Below are positions 299 to 49,524 of a stretch of 64,000 bases of DNA, in pieces. The position numbers and the translations under genes were made by a program. Numbering within the stretch: position 1 is the first letter of the stretch; each line of letters begins with the position of its first letter. Under the pieces are notes generated by a model. It searched no databases, was not told the DNA's origin, and was given only the letters and a program-made list of their open reading frames with translations. Source of the DNA: Anaerolineae bacterium (GTDB lineage: Bacteria > Chloroflexota > Anaerolineae > 4572-78 > J111); contig JAFGNV010000059.1 in NCBI GenBank assembly GCA_016926805.1, forward strand, positions 44,911 to 108,910, in the 5' to 3' direction.

Positions 299-1746
299 TG
301 GATCAGGCCAAGGATATCAAGGATATAACCACCCCCCAGTTGAGCGCCTTGCCCCTCTACGTGATTGACTATCGCACTTTGTCTTATCTCTCCGGGCCTC
401 TGCTCTTTGTAGAGAATGTACAAAATGTGGGATATAATGAAACGGTTGAGCTGCGTGGCCCCGATGGAATGGTTCGACGGGGCCAGGTGCTGGAAGTAAA
501 CCAGAACCGGGCCGTGGTGCAAGTTTTTGTGGGCACCCGGGGTCTGGACCTGGAGCGGACCAAGGCCCGCTTTACCGGTGATGTAGCCCGCCTGGGTGTG
601 TCCCTGGAGATGTTGGGCCGGATGTTCAACGGTTCGGGCGACCCTATTGATGGCGGGCCGCCCATTGTCCCCGAAATGCGCCTGGACATTAACGGCCAGC
701 CGATCAACCCCTGGGCGCGGGACCATCCCGCCGAGTTTATTCAGACCGGTATTTCGGCCATTGATGGTTTGAATACGCTGGTGCGGGGCCAGAAATTGCC
801 CATCTTTTCCGGCTTTGGTTTGCCCGGGGGCGAATTGGCCGCCCAAATTGCCGCCCAGGCCGAGGTCCGTGGCAGCGGTGAAGAGTTTGCGGTTGTTTTT
901 GCAGCTATCGGCATCCCCCATCACGAAGCAGCGGTTTTCCGGCGGAGTTTCGAGGCCAGCGGCGCCCTGGAACGGACAGTGCTCTTTATGAATCTGGCCG
1001 ATGACCCCACAATCGAGCGCATAATTACACCCCGTGTGGCGCTGACCGCGGCCGAGTACCTGGCTTTCCGGCACGGCCATCATGTGTTAGCCATTATCAC
1101 CGATATGACCAACTACGCCGAAGCGCTGCGCGAAGTGTCGGCGGCGCGCGAGGAAGTACCAGGACGGCGCGGTTACCCTGGCTATCTTTACACCGACCTG
1201 GCTTCTCTTTACGAGCGGGCCGGTCGAATTAAAAACAAGCAGGGGTCGATTACCCAACTGCTCATCCTGACCATGCCCGATGACGATATTACCCATCCGA
1301 TCCCCGATTTGACCGGCTACATTACCGAGGGACAGATTGTTCTCTCTCGCGATTTGCACCGCAAAGGGATTTATCCCCCCATTGACCCGCTGCCGTGCCT
1401 GTCGCGCCTGATGAATGCCGGCATTGGCGAGGGCAAGACTCGTCCGGATCATCGTCAGGTGGCCGATCAACTGTATGCCCTCTACGCCCAGGGACGTGAC
1501 TTGCGGCGACTGGTGGCTATTGTTGGCGAGGCCGCCCTGTCTGAGGAAGACCGGCGTTACTTAAGCTTTGCCGAGCGGTTTGAGCAAGAGTTTGTTAATC
1601 AGGGGCAAACCAATCGCTCGTTAGAAGAGACTTTTGAGCGGGCGTGGAAATTGTTGGGCATGATCCCCGCGCGCGAACTCAAACGTATCAAAACCGAGTT
1701 TATTGAGCAACATTATCCAGGCTCTAAAAGTTCCGAAAACCTTTAG
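298..1746 (+). CDS. atpB: V-type ATP synthase subunit B
   Basis: This 482-residue protein is the full usual length of the non-catalytic nucleotide-binding B subunit of a V/A-type ATPase. It shows the N-terminal beta-barrel region, a P-loop-position segment reading [10 protein letters not shown] in which the normal GxxxxGKT lysine is missing (as expected for subunit B), and the conserved stretch [21 protein letters not shown] alternates with catalytic A in the head ring. ATG 298 overlaps the atpA stop, and atpD begins 17 bases after its stop, so the three are one operon. I see no sequence oddity. Confidence 0.97.
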
Positions 1747-1763
1747 AGTCTCTGACCGCAACC

Positions 1764-2402
1764 ATGGAACAAGTTAGAGCTACCCGGGCCGAACTATTGG
1801 CCAAAAAAAGTCAAATTGCTTTAGCCCGCCAGGGACGCGACTTACTCAAAGAAAAGCGGAATGCCCTGATGCGCGAGTTGATGCGCACCGCCGAGCAGGT
1901 GATGCGGAGTAGCGACGAACTGGAGCAGAGCGTCGGCGAAGCTACCATGACCCTGGCCGTGGCTGAAGCCCTTGATGGTCCCGAGGCAGTACGCTCGGCT
2001 GCTTTTGCCGCCGGGGGCCAGCTTACTTTGGAGGTCTCTGGGGCCAATATCATGGGGGTGCCGGTGCCGGTTATCGAACAAAAGAGCGTGGCCCGGAATC
2101 CTCTCACCCGGGGGTACAGTCTGCCGACGGTATCCGGCCGGATTGATGCGGTAGCCGAGGCTTTTGAAATCCTGCTCGACCAGATTATTGAGGTTGCCGA
2201 GAGCGAAATGCGCCTGCGCCGATTGGCCGAAGAGATTGGCCGGACGACGCGCCGCGTGAACGCTTTGGATAATGTGCTTATTCCCCGTCTCGACGCTCAA
2301 CGCAACTACATCCAGATGGTTCTGGAAGAGCGTGAGCGAGAAGACCTTTTCCGGCTTAAACGGGTCAAGATGAAAATGGAACGATCCCATCATCATCAAT
2401 GA
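1764..2402 (+). CDS. atpD: V-type ATP synthase subunit D
   Basis: This 212-residue, strongly helical protein fits subunit D, the central rotor stalk of V/A-type ATPases that couples the A3B3 head to the membrane ring. The N-terminus has the family pattern RATRAELLAKKSQIALARQG followed by KEKRNALMREL, and the C-terminus returns to a long helix containing RRVNALDNVLIPRL. The length is typical. It is the last gene of the operon in the window; a 10-bp perfect hairpin follows 13 bases after the stop. The upstream membrane and stalk subunits must lie to the left of the window. Confidence 0.95.
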   Translation: MEQVRATRAELLAKKSQIALARQGRDLLKEKRNALMRELMRTAEQVMRSSDELEQSVGEATMTLAVAEALDGPEAVRSAAFAAGGQLTLEVSGANIMGVPVPVIEQKSVARNPLTRGYSLPTVSGRIDAVAEAFEILLDQIIEVAESEMRLRRLAEEIGRTTRRVNALDNVLIPRLDAQRNYIQMVLEEREREDLFRLKRVKMKMERSHHHQ

Positions 2403-2415
2403 CGCCCGTTTTCTC

Positions 2416-2438
2416 GTTCCCAAACTCAGTTTGGGAAC
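2416..2438 (+). repeat. Perfect 10-bp inverted repeat after atpD, possible terminator
   Basis: GTTCCCAAAC, a TCA loop and GTTTGGGAAC form a perfect hairpin just after the atpD stop, extended by imperfect CCCGTT/AACGGG pairing. There is no U-tract, so it may act as a 3'-end stabiliser or be a dispersed REP-like repeat rather than a strong intrinsic terminator. Confidence 0.55.
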
Positions 2439-2478
2439 GGGCTAAAGAATGAAGAAAAGTTTAGGGCTAAGGATTAAG

Positions 2479-2602
2479 CCTAAACTTAGTACAAGATTTC
2501 ATAAATACGTTCCGAGTAGAAATGCACTTTTGTAGGGACAGGACAACGTCCTGTCCCTACAAAACCCGGAACAAACTTGCGCAAGATTGTACTTAGTTTA
2601 GG
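2479..2602. mobile_element. MITE-like nested palindromic element
   Basis: Imperfect terminal inverted repeats CCTAAACTTAGTACAA (left, from 2479) and TTGTACTTAGTTTAGG (right, to 2602) enclose a perfect inner palindrome at 2528-2564: a 17-bp arm containing TGTAGGGACAGGAC, a 3-nt loop, and its complement. There is no coding capacity. The inner core resembles that of the element at 17487-17578. Size, ends and lack of ORF fit a non-autonomous element or a REP-type repeat nested in another. I saw no clear target-site duplication. The rest of the 2403-2958 gap holds only the hairpin before it and the terminator after it. Confidence 0.55.
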
Positions 2603-2802
2603 ACAACTTCCGCATTCGGTGGTGAAGTTACTCTCCATTTTGGTTCTGTATTGAGGAAGTTAATTTATTCCCAACCTTTAGCGTAAGGATTGCGTGTTGT
2701 AAGCGTTGCCCCAGCATCATTGAGGCGTCAAGTAGTATCTAACAAAGAGGGGTATAGTTTAAATAATCGACGCAGATTGACATTCTTTTCTCCTCCTTGT
2801 TG

Positions 2803-32640: not shown

Positions 32641-33318
32641 CTAAATGTTTTGTCGCGTTTGCCACACCACCCGCAGAAAGTTGACCACATGCCGAACCGG
32701 GTTGATATGACTCGACTCTCCGGCGTAAATGGTGCTAATGGGTACCCAGTCAAGCCTGAAATCGTGCCGCACACAGATGACAATCATTTCCATCTCAAAT
32801 TCAAAACCGTGCTCACGGCTGGCGAGCAACTTCTTCAGCAGGCGGCAGCTGATCAGACGAAAGCCAGACTGGTTATCCTGGATAGGTTGGCCGATGGCCC
32901 AGGAAAATGCCCCCCGTCCCAGCGAATTGGCCAACCGCCGAACCGGCGGCATCTGGCTGAAATTGCGTGCCCCAATGATCAGGTCACTGTGACGGGTATG
33001 GTAGGCGTCCAGAAACCTGGGAATTTCATGGGGGGCGTGTTGGCCGTCGGCGTCAAGGGTCAACACGGCCTCGTAGTTCTGGTCGATGGCCTGGCGAAAA
33101 CCGGCTTGTAGCGCCGTTCCTTTACCCTGATTGGGGTATTGGCGCAATACCGTAGCGCCGGCAGCTTCAGCCTGAGCAAGAGTCTCATCGGTTGAGCCAT
33201 CATCTACAACCAGTACCGGCAGGTGAGGTAGAACTCCACTCACGATTTCAACAATGTGTTGGACTTCGTTATAGGCGGGAATGAGGGCAAGTATCTTGGG
33301 TGATTCAGGATTTTCCAT
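32641..33318 (-). CDS. Family 2 glycosyltransferase (DPM1/DPG synthase-like)
   Basis: The start ATG 33318 gives 225 residues; the next in-frame ATG is 33327, and the frame beyond lies over DUF2085 coding sequence. The GT-A fold is clear: ALIPAYNEVQHIVEIV, VVDDGSTDET and the metal-binding LTLDADGQH. The size and lack of membrane helices resemble dolichyl-phosphate mannose synthase-like enzymes that charge a polyprenyl phosphate with sugar. Its first codons overlap the end of the DUF2085 gene, so the two are translationally coupled. It could supply lipid-linked sugar for GT-C enzymes elsewhere in the window. Confidence 0.9.
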   Translation of the reverse strand: MENPESPKILALIPAYNEVQHIVEIVSGVLPHLPVLVVDDGSTDETLAQAEAAGATVLRQYPNQGKGTALQAGFRQAIDQNYEAVLTLDADGQHAPHEIPRFLDAYHTRHSDLIIGARNFSQMPPVRRLANSLGRGAFSWAIGQPIQDNQSGFRLISCRLLKKLLASREHGFEFEMEMIVICVRHDFRLDWVPISTIYAGESSHINPVRHVVNFLRVVWQTRQNI

Positions 33319-34054
33319 ACAACCCATTGCCTGGTTGGCCGGTCCACCTGGCGTTTGTTTCTTGTTGAATTTCGCCAAAACCCTCTTCCAAAAGCGGGTA
33401 GGCAACCCAAACCGTGCCAAGACCAAACATAACCCCGGTGAAGTTTCGCAAAAACAGGTTGCTTTGATGAAGCCCCCAAAATTGCAGATAACCTGCGGCG
33501 ACCACCCCACAGGCTAAAAAGATGATCACGGGCCAAGTCAATTGTTTTTGAGTGTACAAAAGGATGGTGACAAAGGTGATGAAGACCACTGTCGTAATCG
33601 ATAAAAGAGGCATTGGCACAAATTGCGCTAATTCGCTGGCCAGGCCCATGCCGCCATCCAGAGTCATCGGCAATAGAAAGAGCAAATACCAGCGAGGCGG
33701 CAACGGCTTGAGCGAACGACGGACAAAGCTGAAAACGATGCCACCCAGAGAAATGGTCCCATAAATGGCAATACAACGATGGCACAGGCAAACCTGCTCG
33801 CCGGCAATAAAGTAGGTCCGCGAGGGGAACAGGTGACATAAAAACTGGTACCACCAATAGATAAAATTAGCGCTGCGGGCGTGGTTAGCGGTCAGTAAGA
33901 GGGGGGCCAAAAAGGGCAATCCAACGTAGAGAAAAAAAAAGGTATTAAGCACGGCCAGCCAGTGACCTGACAACCACCCAACAAGTCGGTTGGCCCAGAA
34001 ACCCAATACCCGGCTGAAGTTATGGGGGGAGACGGTGGGTGATAGTTGGCTCAT
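33305..34054 (-). CDS. DUF2085 membrane protein
   Basis: This 249-residue protein has about six membrane helices. The DUF2085 signature is visible: FLCHLFPSRTYFIAGEQVCL, then CHRCIAIYG, and later LLPMTLDGG. The Cys/His set may bind a metal or form disulfides. Function is unknown. It starts only 2 bases after the pentapeptide-repeat gene and overlaps the GT2 gene, so the three form one minus-strand unit. Confidence 0.88.
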   Translation of the reverse strand: MSQLSPTVSPHNFSRVLGFWANRLVGWLSGHWLAVLNTFFFLYVGLPFLAPLLLTANHARSANFIYWWYQFLCHLFPSRTYFIAGEQVCLCHRCIAIYGTISLGGIVFSFVRRSLKPLPPRWYLLFLLPMTLDGGMGLASELAQFVPMPLLSITTVVFITFVTILLYTQKQLTWPVIIFLACGVVAAGYLQFWGLHQSNLFLRNFTGVMFGLGTVWVAYPLLEEGFGEIQQETNARWTGQPGNGLYGKS

Positions 34055-44436: not shown

Positions 44437-45420
44437 CTATTCTACTGCCTGTCGCACGGCCAAAATATTGCACGTCGGCGCGGTAATGGGCGTGACACAG
44501 CCCGTGCCCAGGATGAATCGTTGCCCGGCGGTGGCCTCAAGCGCGGCTTTGGCTTCGGCTTTAACCGTTTCTGGCGTGCCTCGCACCATCGTTTCCCACT
44601 GGCGCAAACCGCCGCAGAGGGCCATCCCGGTGCGGCTCCTGGCCTCGGCCAGGGAGGGTGGCGTTTCTGCATCGTGCCAGTTGATGACCTGTCCGGGATA
44701 GTCGCCAACCAGGTCAAACATCACGTTGACCCCGTGCAGGTGAATCAGGTTAAACCACATCCCCTCGGTGGCGGCCAGGATTTGCCGGTCGAGCGGCTGG
44801 CCGAACTCGCGGTATTCGGCTTCGGTGAGCAGGTCATAACTGGCGTGTTGCACGGCCAGAAAAATGCCGGACGCGCCGGTTGGCTTGAGGGCGTCAATAA
44901 AACGCAAAATAGTCTCGGTAATGGTGGCCAGACCGGCTTTCACCGCGTCGGGGTGCTGGCGGAGATCCGACAGGAGTCGTTCTCCGGCCAGGTTTTTGGC
45001 CTGGGCCAGCGGGTTGAAAATGGTTTGAATAAACGGCACATCCTGGCCCACCTCCCGCCCAATAAGGCGATTGGCCTGAAGCACTTCGCCCGGTAAGCCG
45101 GTGTGGGGGTTTTGGGGTTGAAGTTTGCTCCAATCCTCCGGTGATTGGATAACGCGCGGACCCCACGCTCGCGTGCCTTCCTGATTGCCCTGCCAGGTGG
45201 TTGTTGCGCCGTATCCGGCCAGGCAAAAGTTGCTGCTGGGGGTCACTTTGATAAAGTCGAAATCATACGTTTGCTGAAAGGCGAGGGTGGCGCGGGCCAG
45301 GTCTGGGCCGGTCTGGTCGTCTACGGGCCAGTGCCGCCATAACGCCACAGCGGGCCGGTCAACCGTTGCCCCGGCCAGGGTGGCTTCCAGGCGTTGGCGT
45401 TTGGTCATGGTGGTGGTCAT
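44437..45420 (-). CDS. Uroporphyrinogen-decarboxylase-family protein
   Basis: This 327-residue protein is the size of the URO-D superfamily, which includes HemE and the corrinoid methyltransferases MtaA/MtbA. It has a TIM-barrel pattern, with FDFIKVTPSSNFCL, HGVNVMFDLVGDYP and the C-terminal GTGCVTPITAPTCN. It lacks the clear RQAGR motif of HemE, so uroporphyrinogen decarboxylation is unlikely; a corrinoid or thiol methyl transfer role is possible. Its ATG overlaps the chelatase D stop by 4 bp, tying it to a tetrapyrrole-type chelatase gene. Confidence 0.85.
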   Translation of the reverse strand: MTTTMTKRQRLEATLAGATVDRPAVALWRHWPVDDQTGPDLARATLAFQQTYDFDFIKVTPSSNFCLAGYGATTTWQGNQEGTRAWGPRVIQSPEDWSKLQPQNPHTGLPGEVLQANRLIGREVGQDVPFIQTIFNPLAQAKNLAGERLLSDLRQHPDAVKAGLATITETILRFIDALKPTGASGIFLAVQHASYDLLTEAEYREFGQPLDRQILAATEGMWFNLIHLHGVNVMFDLVGDYPGQVINWHDAETPPSLAEARSRTGMALCGGLRQWETMVRGTPETVKAEAKAALEATAGQRFILGTGCVTPITAPTCNILAVRQAVE

Positions 45421-46379
45421 AACTTTAATTCATCCTTCACCGTCTGATACAGGGTGTCCGCCTTTAACTCGGCCAGCGTATAGCAGGGGGCTTCAAGCTG
45501 GTTGGCCAGCGCCTGGGCCAGGCCACGATCAAAGCTGGCGTGCTCCATGTTGATGACCACCGAGCGGATGTTTTCTTCGGCAATCATTTTGGCCACCCGA
45601 TGAGCCTCTTCCTGGGCTGGCAGGTTAGACATAGACACGTTGCCCGCGCCGTCGGTGAGCAAGATCATCAACGGCATAATTTCGGGGTGCTGGCGGGTTT
45701 GTTGGGTAAGGACGCGGTGGGCCAGCATCAGCCCGGCAGAGAGTGGTGTTTTGCCGCCGACCGGCACATCGGCCAGGGCGCGCTGGGCCAGTTCGACGCT
45801 GGAGGTGGGCGGTAGCACCACCCGCGCCGACTCCTTTTGGAAAACAACCAGGCCCACCTGATCGCGGCGCTGGTAAGCGTCCAGCAAGAGGCTCATAATG
45901 GCCCCCTTGGTGGCCTCCATTCGTTCGGCGGCGGCCATGCTCCAACTGGCATCCACCACAAAGAGAATTAAATTAGCGGCCCGGCGGACGCGAACTTTGT
46001 CGTGAATGTCTTGCTTTTCTACAGCCAGGGCGCGGTCGGTGTGATCGCGGGTAATTTGATAGGGCGCAGCCGCCCGCAGAGTAGCATCAAAGGCCACATC
46101 TTTGGGCTTACTCTCGCCGACCGGGCGGGCGCGGATGTAGTGACCGCGCTTGCGATCGGTTTTGGTGTAGCTGCGCCGGCCCGCCGACGAGCGGGTCATT
46201 TTGTCCAGGGGAGTTTGCAGTCGTCGGGCCGAAAAATCCTGGCCAATCTCTACCGGATTCTTGGCCTGATTTTTTTCTCCCGACGACTGGGTGGAATGGT
46301 CGGGGTGCGGTGGCGCTCCTTGGGGTTGGGGAACGGGTGACGATTCTCCGTCTACTTCCTCACCATCGTTTTTTTTTCC
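45417..46379 (-). CDS. chlD: ChlD-type C-terminal region (VWA domain), read after -1 frameshift
   Basis: This frame is open from 46379 (just after TAA 46380-46382) to the stop at 45417. It has no good start; the first ATG (46199) lies in the middle of a conserved segment, since the coding style runs upstream through FSARRLQTPLDK. The region is an acidic/Pro-rich linker, then a basic block GRRSYTKTDRKRGHYIRAR, then a VWA domain with the MIDAS motif DASWS and LTDGAGN. It fits the C-terminal half of ChlD/BchD-type subunits. It joins the ATPase frame by one base backward at the A9 run (46369-46377), giving a protein of about 682 residues, the normal ChlD size. Confidence 0.85.
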   Translation of the reverse strand, partial: GKKNDGEEVDGESSPVPQPQGAPPHPDHSTQSSGEKNQAKNPVEIGQDFSARRLQTPLDKMTRSSAGRRSYTKTDRKRGHYIRARPVGESKPKDVAFDATLRAAAPYQITRDHTDRALAVEKQDIHDKVRVRRAANLILFVVDASWSMAAAERMEATKGAIMSLLLDAYQRRDQVGLVVFQKESARVVLPPTSSVELAQRALADVPVGGKTPLSAGLMLAHRVLTQQTRQHPEIMPLMILLTDGAGNVSMSNLPAQEEAHRVAKMIAEENIRSVVINMEHASFDRGLAQALANQLEAPCYTLAELKADTLYQTVKDELKL

Positions 46380-46382
46380 TTA
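46352..46382 (-). other. Likely programmed -1 frameshift site in chlD
   Basis: On the minus strand the zero frame reads AAG GAA AAA AAA ACG ATG. A -1 slip on A AAA AAA (46370-46376) leads to AAC GAT GGT GAG in the VWA frame. The two frames overlap only between 46352 and 46379. Short downstream pairings (GGTGA with TCACC; GACG with CGTC) and an AGGA next to the run could help. Frameshifting in chlD genes to make both subunits has been described for other bacteria and archaea. Confidence 0.8.
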
Positions 46383-47464
46383 AAAGAATCGGACATCTCG
46401 CCGGAATCGAGCATTTGTTCGGTTTGTTCGGTGGCTTCCTGGCGGACTTGCTGCAAACGATCGGCCAGTTCTTCAAATTGCATGCTCACGTCCTGAAATG
46501 GTTGCCGCTTGAGGCGGTGCGGCAGGGCCAGTTCTGCTGCAATCAGGATGTCTTCCTGGGTGATTTTTTTGCGGTTATTGAAGGCGGCGTGGGCCAACGC
46601 GGTTTTGAGAATGACAATATCGCCCCGGTGACCATCCACTTTCATTTCGGCCATCAATTCGGCAATGGTGTACAGATCGCGTTTGGTATAGACCACCTCA
46701 GGCAAAAGTTCGCGAGCGCGGGTAATTTGGTTGGCCAGTTCCCCTTCTTTGGGCTGCCATTTTTCGTAGAATTTATCGGCGTCCTGTTCAAAGTTGAGGG
46801 TGCGATCCAAAATTTGCATGCGGGCGTGCGGTTCGGCAATGCTCTGAATGTCTACACAGAGGGCAAAACGGTCGAGTAATTGCGGCCGCAGGTCTCCCTC
46901 TTCCGGGTTCATGGTGCCCACAAAAATGAAGCGGGCCGGGTGAGAAAAGCTGATACCCTCTCGCTCTACCACGTTGACTCCCATCGCGGCCGAGTCCAGC
47001 AGCAAATCGACCACGTGGTCGTCCAGCAGATTGACCTCGTCCACATAGAGCAGGCCGCGGTTGGCCGCAGCCAGAACGCCCGGTTCAAAGTGTTTTTCGC
47101 CTTTTTTAATGGCCTGCTCGATGTCCAACGTGCCGACCACCCGGTCTTCCGTGGCGCTAATCGGCAGGTCGACAAACCGGATGCGGCGTTTGCTTACGTC
47201 CAGTCCTTCACTGTGCTCTTTGCGTTCTTTAACCCAGTCGGACCAGGTTTGGGGCGCGTCGGGATCGTCGTTAAAGGGTGAGTCGGTAAAGACATTAATT
47301 TCCGGTAACAGAGCCGCCATGGCCCGCGCCGCGGTGGATTTGGCCGTGCCACGTTCACCGCGAATAAGGACGCCCCCAATTTGCGGGCTGATGGCGTTGA
47401 GGATAAGGGCCATCCGCATGCGGTCCTGACCCACAATTGCCGTGAAAGGAAAAATGGAACGCAT
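46352..47464 (-). CDS. Chelatase AAA+ ATPase, ChlI-like product of the chlD gene
   Basis: This 370-residue product in the zero frame is a Mg/Co-chelatase-type AAA+ ATPase. The Walker A is GERGTAKST, the Walker B LLYVDEVNLLDD, and the insert EDRVVGTLDIEQAIKKGEK is the family feature; sensor residues lie in GTMNPEEGDL. Termination occurs at TAG 46352-46354, eight codons past the A9 run. A ribosome that stays in frame makes this small ChlI-like subunit, while a -1 slip makes full ChlD. Its ATG shares a base with the EF-G2-like stop. Partners would be CobN or ChlH, not in the window. Confidence 0.92.
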   Translation of the reverse strand: MRSIFPFTAIVGQDRMRMALILNAISPQIGGVLIRGERGTAKSTAARAMAALLPEINVFTDSPFNDDPDAPQTWSDWVKERKEHSEGLDVSKRRIRFVDLPISATEDRVVGTLDIEQAIKKGEKHFEPGVLAAANRGLLYVDEVNLLDDHVVDLLLDSAAMGVNVVEREGISFSHPARFIFVGTMNPEEGDLRPQLLDRFALCVDIQSIAEPHARMQILDRTLNFEQDADKFYEKWQPKEGELANQITRARELLPEVVYTKRDLYTIAELMAEMKVDGHRGDIVILKTALAHAAFNNRKKITQEDILIAAELALPHRLKRQPFQDVSMQFEELADRLQQVRQEATEQTEQMLDSGEMSDSFKEKKTMVRK

Positions 47465-49524
47465 TACTCTTCTTCCTTTTCTTTTTGCGCCTGGGCAATG
47501 ATCTCACTGGCAATGTGGCTAGGTACGTTTTCGTAGTGAGACAATTCCATAGTGTAAATGCCGCGTCCTTGCGTCAGAGAGCGCAGGTCGGTAGAATAAC
47601 GCTGCACTTCGGCCAGGGGCGCCTGGGCGGTGATGACCGTGTTCCCCCGCACCTGCTCCATGCCCGACATGCGGCCACGCCGGGTGCTGAGGTCGCCGGT
47701 TACGTCGCCGGTGTATTCTTCGGGAATGGTGATGGTCAGGTTCATAATCGGTTCCAATAAAACCGGTCCGGCCTGCATCATAGCCTTTTTAAAAGCCTCA
47801 CGTCCGGCAATCTGGAAGGCGATGTCTTTGGAATCGACGGGGTGCTCTTTACCATCAAAGACCACGGCTCGCACGTCTGCAACCGGATAACCGGCAATGG
47901 GTCCTTGATCTAACACTTGTTTGATACCTTTTTCAATAGATGGCAGAAATGGTTGGGAGATAGCTCCGCCAAAGATTTCGCTTTTGTACTCAAAACCGGC
48001 GCCACGCTCCAATGGTTCCACCCGCATGTGGACTTCGCCAAATTGACCCGCGCCGCCGCTTTGTTTTTTATGGCGATACATGTCGGAGCCAACCTTGGTG
48101 ACCGTTTCCCGCATCGGCACTTTGGGTATCGATGTCTCCACGTTCAGGCCGAAACGGTTTTTCATGCGTTTGACGGCAATATTAATGTGGGTTTCACCCA
48201 TGCCTTCCAGCAGGGTTTGCCGGGTGGCGGTTTCGTAACGATGTTTCAGGGTCAAATCTTCCTCGGTGATGCGGGTCAGGCTGGGGCCCAGTTTGGCTGC
48301 GTCGCTCTGGCTTTCGGGAACCAGGGCCACGGCATATAGCGGGCTGGGATACACAATCATCGGTATGGTGTACGCTTTGGCCTTTTCACTCAAGGTATCG
48401 CCGGTGAGCGTTGCGTTTAATTTTAGGGCGCTGACAATGTCACCGGCAACGGCTTCAGTGATGTCAATCTGATCCTTCCCCCGCAGCAGCGACAATCCGG
48501 CCAGCCTTTCCTCTTGTTCCGCCCGGCTGTTGAACAGGCGGACGTCGGCTTTGAACGTGCCCGACCAGACACGCAGATAGCTGACTTTGCCGTATTGGTC
48601 GTTGACGGTTTTGAAAGCCTGCACTGCCACGGGGCCATCGGGGTTGCCGGTGAGGGTTTCTGGTGCACCGCCTTTGGCCGTGGCCTTGATTTCTACCGCC
48701 GGGGCGGGAAAGATGTGGCTGATGGAATTCATAAAATCCCGTACGCCCACGTTTTCGGTGGCCGAGCCGCAGAAAACCGGCACCACCCCGCCGCGAGCCA
48801 GACCGGCCTTGAGTCCCTGGCCAATTTCTTCGGGCGATAGGGTTTCTTCTTCAAAATATTTTTCCATCAGGGCGTCCTCGCCTTCGGCGGCAAATTCGAT
48901 CAACTCCATGCGGAATTCTTCAATCTCGTCGGCCATACCGGCAGGCGGGTCGCCGGGTTTGCTGGCGCCGGTGTAGGCTTTTTGGGTAATCAAATCGACC
49001 ACGCCTTCGAACTTGTCGTTGGTGCGGATGGGAAGCTGCATGGGCACAAACTTGGCGTCAAAGGTCTGGCGCAGTTGGTCAATTACCTTGCGATAACTGG
49101 CGTTTTCTCGGTTCATTTTGTTAACGAAAACGGCAATGGGTTTATGGTTTTCTGCGGCCATTTGCCAGGAAAGCTGTGTGCCCACCTCTACCCCCGCCGA
49201 ACCATCCAGCACCAGCACCACGGCTTCGGCCACATGGATGCCGCTGAGCATCTCGCCCTGAAAATCGGTGTAACCGGGCGTATCCAGCACGTTGATCTTG
49301 TGTCCATCCCATTCGCACGGGATCACCGACAGGTTGAGGGACATTTTGCGGCTGATTTCTTCCTCGTCATAGTCCGAGACGGTGTTGCCGTCCTCGATTT
49401 TGCCCAAACGATTGACCGCGCCGGTGTTAAAGAGCATGGCTTCCACCAGCGAGGTTTTGCCGCAGCCGCTATGGCCCAAAAGAACGATATTTCTGATTTT
49501 GTCGGTTGTATAACTGCCTGCCAT
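47464..49524 (-). CDS. EF-G2-like translational GTPase
   Basis: This 686-residue protein has all five EF-G domains in normal length. The G domain carries LGHSGCGKTSLVEAML (G1), DTPGYTDF (G3) and NKMNREN (G4); the later part has FGEVHMRVEPLERG. The G1 loop with GHSGCGKT instead of AHIDAGKTT places it with the EF-G-like second copies (EF-G2/FusA2) found in Thermus, Thermotoga and others rather than main FusA. Their exact role is unsettled; ribosome-related GTPase activity is known in some. It leads the chelatase operon. Confidence 0.92.
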   Translation of the reverse strand: MAGSYTTDKIRNIVLLGHSGCGKTSLVEAMLFNTGAVNRLGKIEDGNTVSDYDEEEISRKMSLNLSVIPCEWDGHKINVLDTPGYTDFQGEMLSGIHVAEAVVLVLDGSAGVEVGTQLSWQMAAENHKPIAVFVNKMNRENASYRKVIDQLRQTFDAKFVPMQLPIRTNDKFEGVVDLITQKAYTGASKPGDPPAGMADEIEEFRMELIEFAAEGEDALMEKYFEEETLSPEEIGQGLKAGLARGGVVPVFCGSATENVGVRDFMNSISHIFPAPAVEIKATAKGGAPETLTGNPDGPVAVQAFKTVNDQYGKVSYLRVWSGTFKADVRLFNSRAEQEERLAGLSLLRGKDQIDITEAVAGDIVSALKLNATLTGDTLSEKAKAYTIPMIVYPSPLYAVALVPESQSDAAKLGPSLTRITEEDLTLKHRYETATRQTLLEGMGETHINIAVKRMKNRFGLNVETSIPKVPMRETVTKVGSDMYRHKKQSGGAGQFGEVHMRVEPLERGAGFEYKSEIFGGAISQPFLPSIEKGIKQVLDQGPIAGYPVADVRAVVFDGKEHPVDSKDIAFQIAGREAFKKAMMQAGPVLLEPIMNLTITIPEEYTGDVTGDLSTRRGRMSGMEQVRGNTVITAQAPLAEVQRYSTDLRSLTQGRGIYTMELSHYENVPSHIASEIIAQAQKEKEEE

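Follow-up and report, generated by a model that had tools for sequence, protein, structure and literature searches.

A chlD-type gene of Anaerolineae split by a -1 frame change at a conserved A-run

In a 64,000-nucleotide stretch of DNA from an Anaerolineae bacterium (here called the window), the reading frame of a ChlI-like AAA+ ATPase stops shortly after a run of nine A's, and a second frame encoding a VWA domain opens across that same run, displaced by one base. How, then, is the VWA half of this locus made, and are we looking at a broken gene, at two genes, or at one gene with two products? The comparisons below show that an apparently broken or two-gene locus is an arrangement conserved across much of a bacterial class. 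We lean towards the reading that a single gene has two products, a ChlI-like ATPase of 370 residues and, through a -1 ribosomal slip at the A9 run, a ChlD-like ATPase-VWA protein of 682 residues.

Two reading frames meet at an A9 run

Table 1. Features at and around the frame junction, in window coordinates.
Feature	Position	Strand	Remark
ChlI-like AAA+ ATPase ORF, zero frame	47464..46352	minus	370 aa; predicted short product
Linker and VWA (integrin I-like) frame, -1 relative to ATPase	46379..45417	minus	317 residues from the slip point
A9, proposed slip site, A_AAA_AAA in the ATPase frame	46377-46369	minus	followed by CG
TAA ahead of the open VWA frame	46382-46380	minus	just ahead
TGA closing the third frame (ATPase +1)	46360..46362	minus	directly past A9
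TAG closing the ATPase frame	46354-46352	minus	shortly past A9
EF-G-like gene	47464..49524	minus	upstream neighbour; stop overlaps ATPase start (TAATG)
URO-D/MtaA-like gene	44437..45420	minus	downstream neighbour; ATG overlaps VWA stop by 4 nt (ATGA)

Through their start/stop overlaps, the EF-G-like, ATPase/VWA and URO-D/MtaA-like genes form a tight cluster (Table 1). The VWA frame begins open 25 nt ahead of the ATPase stop, and the A9 run lies in between. The ATPase frame matches the AAA_lid_2, Mg_chelatase and AAA_5 domains, and its residues 2-346 match a solved ChlI structure (6l8d, E 1.9e-108). The VWA frame matches the VWA_2 and VWA domains, and its residues 133-275 match the integrin domain of BchD (2x31, E 3.2e-20). 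Scored separately, the two halves match positions 1-343 and 363-640 of the putative cobaltochelatase profile TIGR02442. The ATPase half reaches 492.1 bits against the first half of this profile and 424.9 bits against TIGR02030, both below the whole-protein cut-offs. The VWA frame reaches 272.3 bits against the second half of TIGR02442, whose cut-off of 779.45 bits is set for a whole protein, and the scores are those of the separate halves, not of the joined 682-residue protein. By eye, we also spotted GERGTAKS, a Walker A stretch, and DASWS, the metal-site motif, as well as a TDG.

Across the run, the zero frame reads GAA AAA AAA ACG ATG GTG AGG AAG TAG. A one-base backward slip past the second AAA would continue as AAC GAT GGT GAG and join 365 residues of the ATPase frame to 317 of the VWA frame. 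The first-pass annotation had proposed a -1 offset of the two frames at A9, with a ChlI-sized product when no slip occurs and a ChlD-sized product of 682 residues when it does; the coordinates hold exactly, and the lengths (370 versus 365 + 317) agree with both products. It had also judged the VWA frame to lack a believable start. Indeed, the first ATG in that frame, at 46199, lies 155 nt past the ATPase stop and has no Shine-Dalgarno-like (SD-like) sequence. The predicted short product is ChlI-sized in relatives as well, at 346-387 aa (median 370) in the 103 split loci for which it was measurable.

The window contains two nine-base A/T runs, the A9 and one other, a T9 at 33932-33940 that lies on the coding strand of an ORF for a 249-aa membrane-protein-like product (33305..34054, minus) and is probably ordinary. 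A second A-run, an A7 at 46270-46276 (minus), lies in the VWA frame about 100 nt beyond the slip site and is read GAA AAA AAT; its counterpart was not found in the linker of a same-genus relative.

Frameshifted chlD genes (fs-chlD) and their slippery sites have already been published, as has the fact that they occur in Chloroflexi that have no large subunit (PMC9227772). The Chloroflexi named are Brevefilum fermentans and four Anaerolineaceae species, with neither large-subunit gene (Kuznetsov, Milenkin and Antonov 2022, PMC9227772). The present locus resembles the fs-chlD genes described there: a ChlI-like AAA+ ATPase in frame one is followed by a ChlD-type VWA in frame two, with a -1 change at an AT-rich slippery site and two products per gene. 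The kinship to published frameshifted chlD genes that had been suggested at first sight is upheld by this domain order and by the -1 step at A_AAA_AAR. The gene is a well-conserved further case of fs-chlD, with an evolutionary pattern that is worth testing.

Two other known systems are instructive. A magnesium chelatase frameshift cluster, with members in Pseudomonas, Burkholderia, Delftia, Herpetosiphon, Methanocaldococcus and Methanococcus, has in common with our locus the -1 frameshift and the A_AAA_AAR motif, said there to be under purifying selection, but it comprises other genera (PMC3711429, PMC5009743). In E. coli reporters, frameshifting reached 63% with 11 As, 40% with 9 As and 10% with 7 As (PMC3711429), efficiencies that stem from related genes. 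The dnaX genes of E. coli and Thermus thermophilus likewise use an A-run to make a short AAA+ protein and a C-terminally extended one (PMC5009743, PMC3711429). By contrast, dnaX is an unrelated gene, and the arrangement with the short form in the zero frame, which most of our loci show, is described in those papers for a minority of dnaX genes only.

The frame offset and the A-run among relatives

A VWA match was obtained in 39 of 41 relatives' genomes, some of these being weak matches to other VWA genes. Across the class, 342 of 396 genomes gave a match at E <= 1e-70, and chlD was present in 225 of the 234 genomes with a completeness of 90% or more and a contamination of 5% or less. Loci were drawn from the matching relative and class genomes and from 80 named records, almost all of which bear the label Chloroflexota or that of one of its classes. 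The resulting 157 distinct loci comprise the top-scoring share of the 342 matching class genomes, together with the named records, so that near relatives are over-represented. One record without an ATPase-VWA pair (L080), two CobN hits (L125, L126) and two second VWA regions (L214, L215) were omitted, and a locus that appeared under two names was counted a single time. The loci are related by descent, and the counts that follow are not independent.

Relative to the ATPase, the VWA frame lies at -1 in 125 of the 157 loci and at +1 in 2, and 30 loci encode both halves in a single frame. An A-run of at least seven is present in the linker of 151 loci; the six without it are five continuous genes and one split gene. 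Run lengths span A7 to A12, in split and continuous forms. Within the window's own order, the split falls at an A9 or A10 run in 17 of 18 loci, while the surrounding linker drifts. The run is A9 in 15 of these 18 loci and A10 in 3, among them that of a same-family genome (L008) whose frame is uninterrupted. A same-genus genome (G001) has the identical A9 and offset, and its two halves are 91-92% identical to ours. Runs of seven or more A's occur in the linkers of 91 of the first 96 distinct loci, versus 5 such runs elsewhere in these same genes (167,340 nt). In the same 96 loci, the linker carries an in-frame A_AAA_AAR in 77 of 78 split genes and in 14 of 18 continuous ones, and there are 3 in-frame occurrences in the 166,383 nt of these genes that lie outside it. 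The -1 offset at a slippery A_AAA_AAR is conserved between species. The first-pass annotation had pointed to related genomes as the place to look for the A-run and the offset, and both are kept there, including in the same-genus genome.

Several loci depart from the common arrangement. In L183 (A8) and L196 (A10) the offset of the VWA frame is +1 and not -1. L041 is split and has no A7+ run at the junction; its near relatives L044 and L068 are continuous and also have no run. The chlD of L085, a record labelled Halieaceae, is placed among Chloroflexota loci in the tree, and this record is possibly a mislabelled or mixed assembly.

Slippage by ribosome or by RNA polymerase

In the mechanism that we propose, tRNA-Lys in the P and A sites would, in a fraction of passes, let go of AAA AAA and pair again with the overlapping codons of A_AAA_AAA in the -1 frame, and ribosomes that do not slip would terminate at the TAG of the ATPase frame. 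Stops are concentrated just behind the run in relatives. Among the 124 split loci with a run, the ATPase frame stops within 10 codons past it at 118 loci, versus 24.7 expected under a synonymous-codon null, and the third frame at 112 loci, versus 64.7 expected. None of 500 simulations reached the observed count for either frame, and an earlier analysis of 77 loci gave the same picture of enrichment. In the 18 own-order loci, the TAG columns are 83-94% and the TGA columns 89-94% conserved. These stops fit ribosomal and transcriptional mechanisms alike. The third-frame enrichment counts against a ribosome-only model, since a pure -1 ribosomal slip needs no such stop.

The serious rival is slippage by RNA polymerase, for which we see a real if clearly minority chance. 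The polymerase would stutter at A9 and produce mRNAs with 8, 9, 10 or 11 A's; those with ten A's would yield the 682-residue protein by normal translation, and the others would end at TAG or TGA. Runs of nine A or T are efficient for bacterial RNA polymerase, and in Thermus thermophilus dnaX near stops occur in both other frames (PMC5009743); this pairing of a nine-base A/T run with near stops in both other frames is present at our locus. The excess of stops over synonymous expectation in both non-VWA frames agrees with transcriptional slippage, as do their conserved columns in the own order and the lack of a stable downstream structure in the window. A7 runs may slip in this way too: AAAAAAA is under-represented in E. 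coli genes in all three frames, and transcriptional slippage is one suggested reason for its scarcity (PMC4066793).

RNA polymerase is, however, blind to codon phase, yet the short runs keep the slippery one. All 19 A7 runs (16 split, 3 continuous) are in phase xxA AAA AAA, and all 29 split A8 runs are in phase xAA AAA AAA. The only A8 run in a different phase is that of L183, a +1 locus. Twenty-three of the A8 loci belong to one clade, and the A7 and A8 states each change at least five times on the tree. Runs of nine or more hold A_AAA_AAA in every phase, so phase is uninformative there. Third-frame stops are also found in split A7 loci (11 of 16 versus 5.5 expected), so they are no clean mark of the polymerase. 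Because A7 and split A8 runs keep the slippery codon phase, the sequence pattern leads us to favour moderately the ribosome over RNA polymerase as the slipping machine. The +1 loci L183 and L196, and the split L041 without an A7+ run, count against the -1 ribosomal model. Both kinds of slippage could act at A9, and the A7-A12 loci, split and continuous, form a large natural series for separating the two.

A stable downstream RNA structure could not be demonstrated in the window, where z was -0.77, -1.23 and -1.37 against dinucleotide shuffles and +1.0 under the synonymous null. Over 77 split loci, the synonymous null gave a mean z of -0.47 versus -0.19 in a control stretch, and own-order loci gave -0.96 versus 0.05 (n=17). 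A downstream hairpin, indicated by a mean z of -1.29 versus -0.1 with an approximate dinucleotide shuffler, was set aside, the synonymous null removing most of the signal. An SD-like AGG abuts the A9 run and is absent from many relatives; the SD stimulator of the dnaX type is located further upstream of the slip site. A GAGG ahead of the run was considered as an internal SD and rejected, being conserved in the own order only.

It is very unlikely that the locus comprises two separate genes, with translation of the VWA protein starting afresh, by re-initiation or at an internal site, and no fusion being formed. Overlapping ORFs are common in operons, the VWA frame does contain the ATG at 46199, and some start codon lies near the ATPase stop in 33 of the 125 split loci. 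That ATG, however, is distant and has no SD-like sequence, and in the remaining 92 split loci the VWA frame has no ATG, GTG or TTG between 60 nt ahead of the ATPase stop and about 30 nt past it. A nearby ATG is found in only 22 of the 125 and a start with an SD-like sequence in only 9, and at the 30 continuous loci the fusion is encoded in one frame. Re-initiation is an unlikely source of the VWA protein.

A sequencing or assembly error in the homopolymer, with the real gene being a single frame, had at first been named as the main alternative. Homopolymers are error-prone, and the continuous loci include the same-family A10 genome; against this, the same offset recurs in 125 of 157 loci from many assemblies, the same-genus genome also has A9, and the stop used by the split gene is enriched at synonymous sites. 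Error as a general cause is excluded by the conservation of both offset and run (125 and 151 of 157), and we regard it as highly improbable. The least probable explanation of all is a recently broken pseudogene: the frame is interrupted, but both halves are open and similar class-wide, and the offset is common to the 125 loci.

Exchange of the split and continuous forms, and possible function

In a tree of 157 rows (quick IQ-TREE with SH-aLRT as the only support measure, linker excluded), split loci, including the two +1 loci, and continuous loci interchange at least 19 times, 12 of these changes being forced by well-supported branches. Shuffled split/continuous labels require 27.8 changes on average; the label is clustered yet labile on the tree. 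Presence of the A-run needs 4 changes on the same tree. An earlier 96-row tree gave 13 and 6 changes, respectively. Some A9/A10 readings from metagenome assemblies may be wrong.

The first-pass annotation had taken uninterrupted frames in close relatives to speak against a genuine frameshift. Such frames do occur, at 30 of 157 loci including L008, but the A-run is retained in 25 of the 30, each of which also has a stop in the -1 frame no more than 10 codons on (versus 12.2 expected). In these 25 genes we may be seeing one and the same device, with the other product as its default. A +1-frame stop is present in 17 of the 25, versus 7.0 expected. We set aside the -1-frame stops (14 of 14 run-bearing continuous genes at first, 25 of 25 later) as proof of inverted recoding. 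They alone are no proof of a slip in continuous genes, because split genes, too, are rich in stops in that frame (71 of 77, later 112 of 124) and because the other frame is stop-rich in continuous genes. As far as the sequences go, the pattern is compatible with a device that would give both products from either DNA frame.

As a tentative reading, to which we give a little under even weight, the slip site and not the frame would be the conserved trait: lineages would flip between a short and a long default and yet make both products, and the pair would be a class-wide, free-standing AAA+/VWA machine of ChlI/ChlD type whose job is other than CobN/ChlH metal insertion. On this same reading, single-base gains and losses in the run would be nearly harmless, because slippage would give both products from either arrangement. 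Compared with the fs-chlD genes described in PMC9227772, three things are different here: the class was surveyed more widely, stops are retained in the two frames other than that of the VWA domain, and split and continuous forms have replaced each other repeatedly. In the titles and abstract openings searched, we found no account of repeated split/continuous chlD switching or of dual-frame stops.

The initial view of the two products as subunits of a working chelatase found no support here, the large subunit not being found. The CobN/ChlH family PF02514 had 0 matches in the own genome, an assembly 95.57% complete whose missing part could still hold the gene; the same search was positive in 5 of 14 control genomes. 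Among the relatives, PF02514 was above cut-off in 4 of 41, and across the class in 46 of 396 genomes. Comparing the lists by eye, we counted it above cut-off in 44 of the 342 chlD-bearing class genomes and not in the other 298, some of which may lack it through incomplete assembly. In the better genomes (at least 90% complete, at most 5% contaminated), PF02514 was found in 35 of 234 (E <= 0.001), versus 225 with chlD. One genome, G027, has CobN and, 561 nt away from it, a separate VWA gene whose open frame spans 605 codons (contig C16, L214 region C16:7500-15000), and it also carries a frameshifted chlD elsewhere (contig C17, L033). This pair suggests, from gene content, that the frameshifted chlD is a paralogue with another role. 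Because the large subunit is mostly not found and G027 has a separate CobN-adjacent gene, the frameshifted gene in this class is probably not a dedicated chelatase part, and the label 'chelatase' is doubtful for it.

The short and long products, which would have their ATPase part in common, may form a mixed AAA+ ring in the manner of ChlI and ChlD. Because no CobN/ChlH was found in the genome, we infer that such a ring would serve a client other than the CobN/ChlH chelatase. By analogy with ChlI/ChlD and other AAA+/VWA pairs, it might remodel or load a client protein. These observations sharpen a question raised in PMC9227772: what role do ChlI and ChlD play where the large subunit is missing?

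Gene neighbours and cofactor genes were also considered as guides to function. A tblastn search with the window's neighbours, over flanks of up to about 5-6 kb (shorter at contig ends) of 79 named loci (L045-L124 minus L080), placed EF-G upstream in 8 of 79 and URO-D downstream in 8 of 79, all of them nearer relatives. Function from gene neighbours was dropped, these two being shared with nearer relatives only. When the flanking ORFs were clustered, no neighbour common to the whole class emerged; the most frequent cluster, which we read as sigma-factor-like, occurs at 22 loci on the other strand, and several clusters look like shadow ORFs. CbiC (PF02570) was not found in the own genome and was found in 10 of 41 relatives; a B12 link for this gene was set aside, the CbiC search showing none.

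The own genome also encodes a second ChlI-like ATPase on contig C196 (L002; ORF 1399..2733, minus; 444 aa), 35% identical to the first. By eye, none of the ORFs in the 4 kb around it is a VWA gene. This second ATPase has a cysteine-containing insert and a lysine-rich tail.
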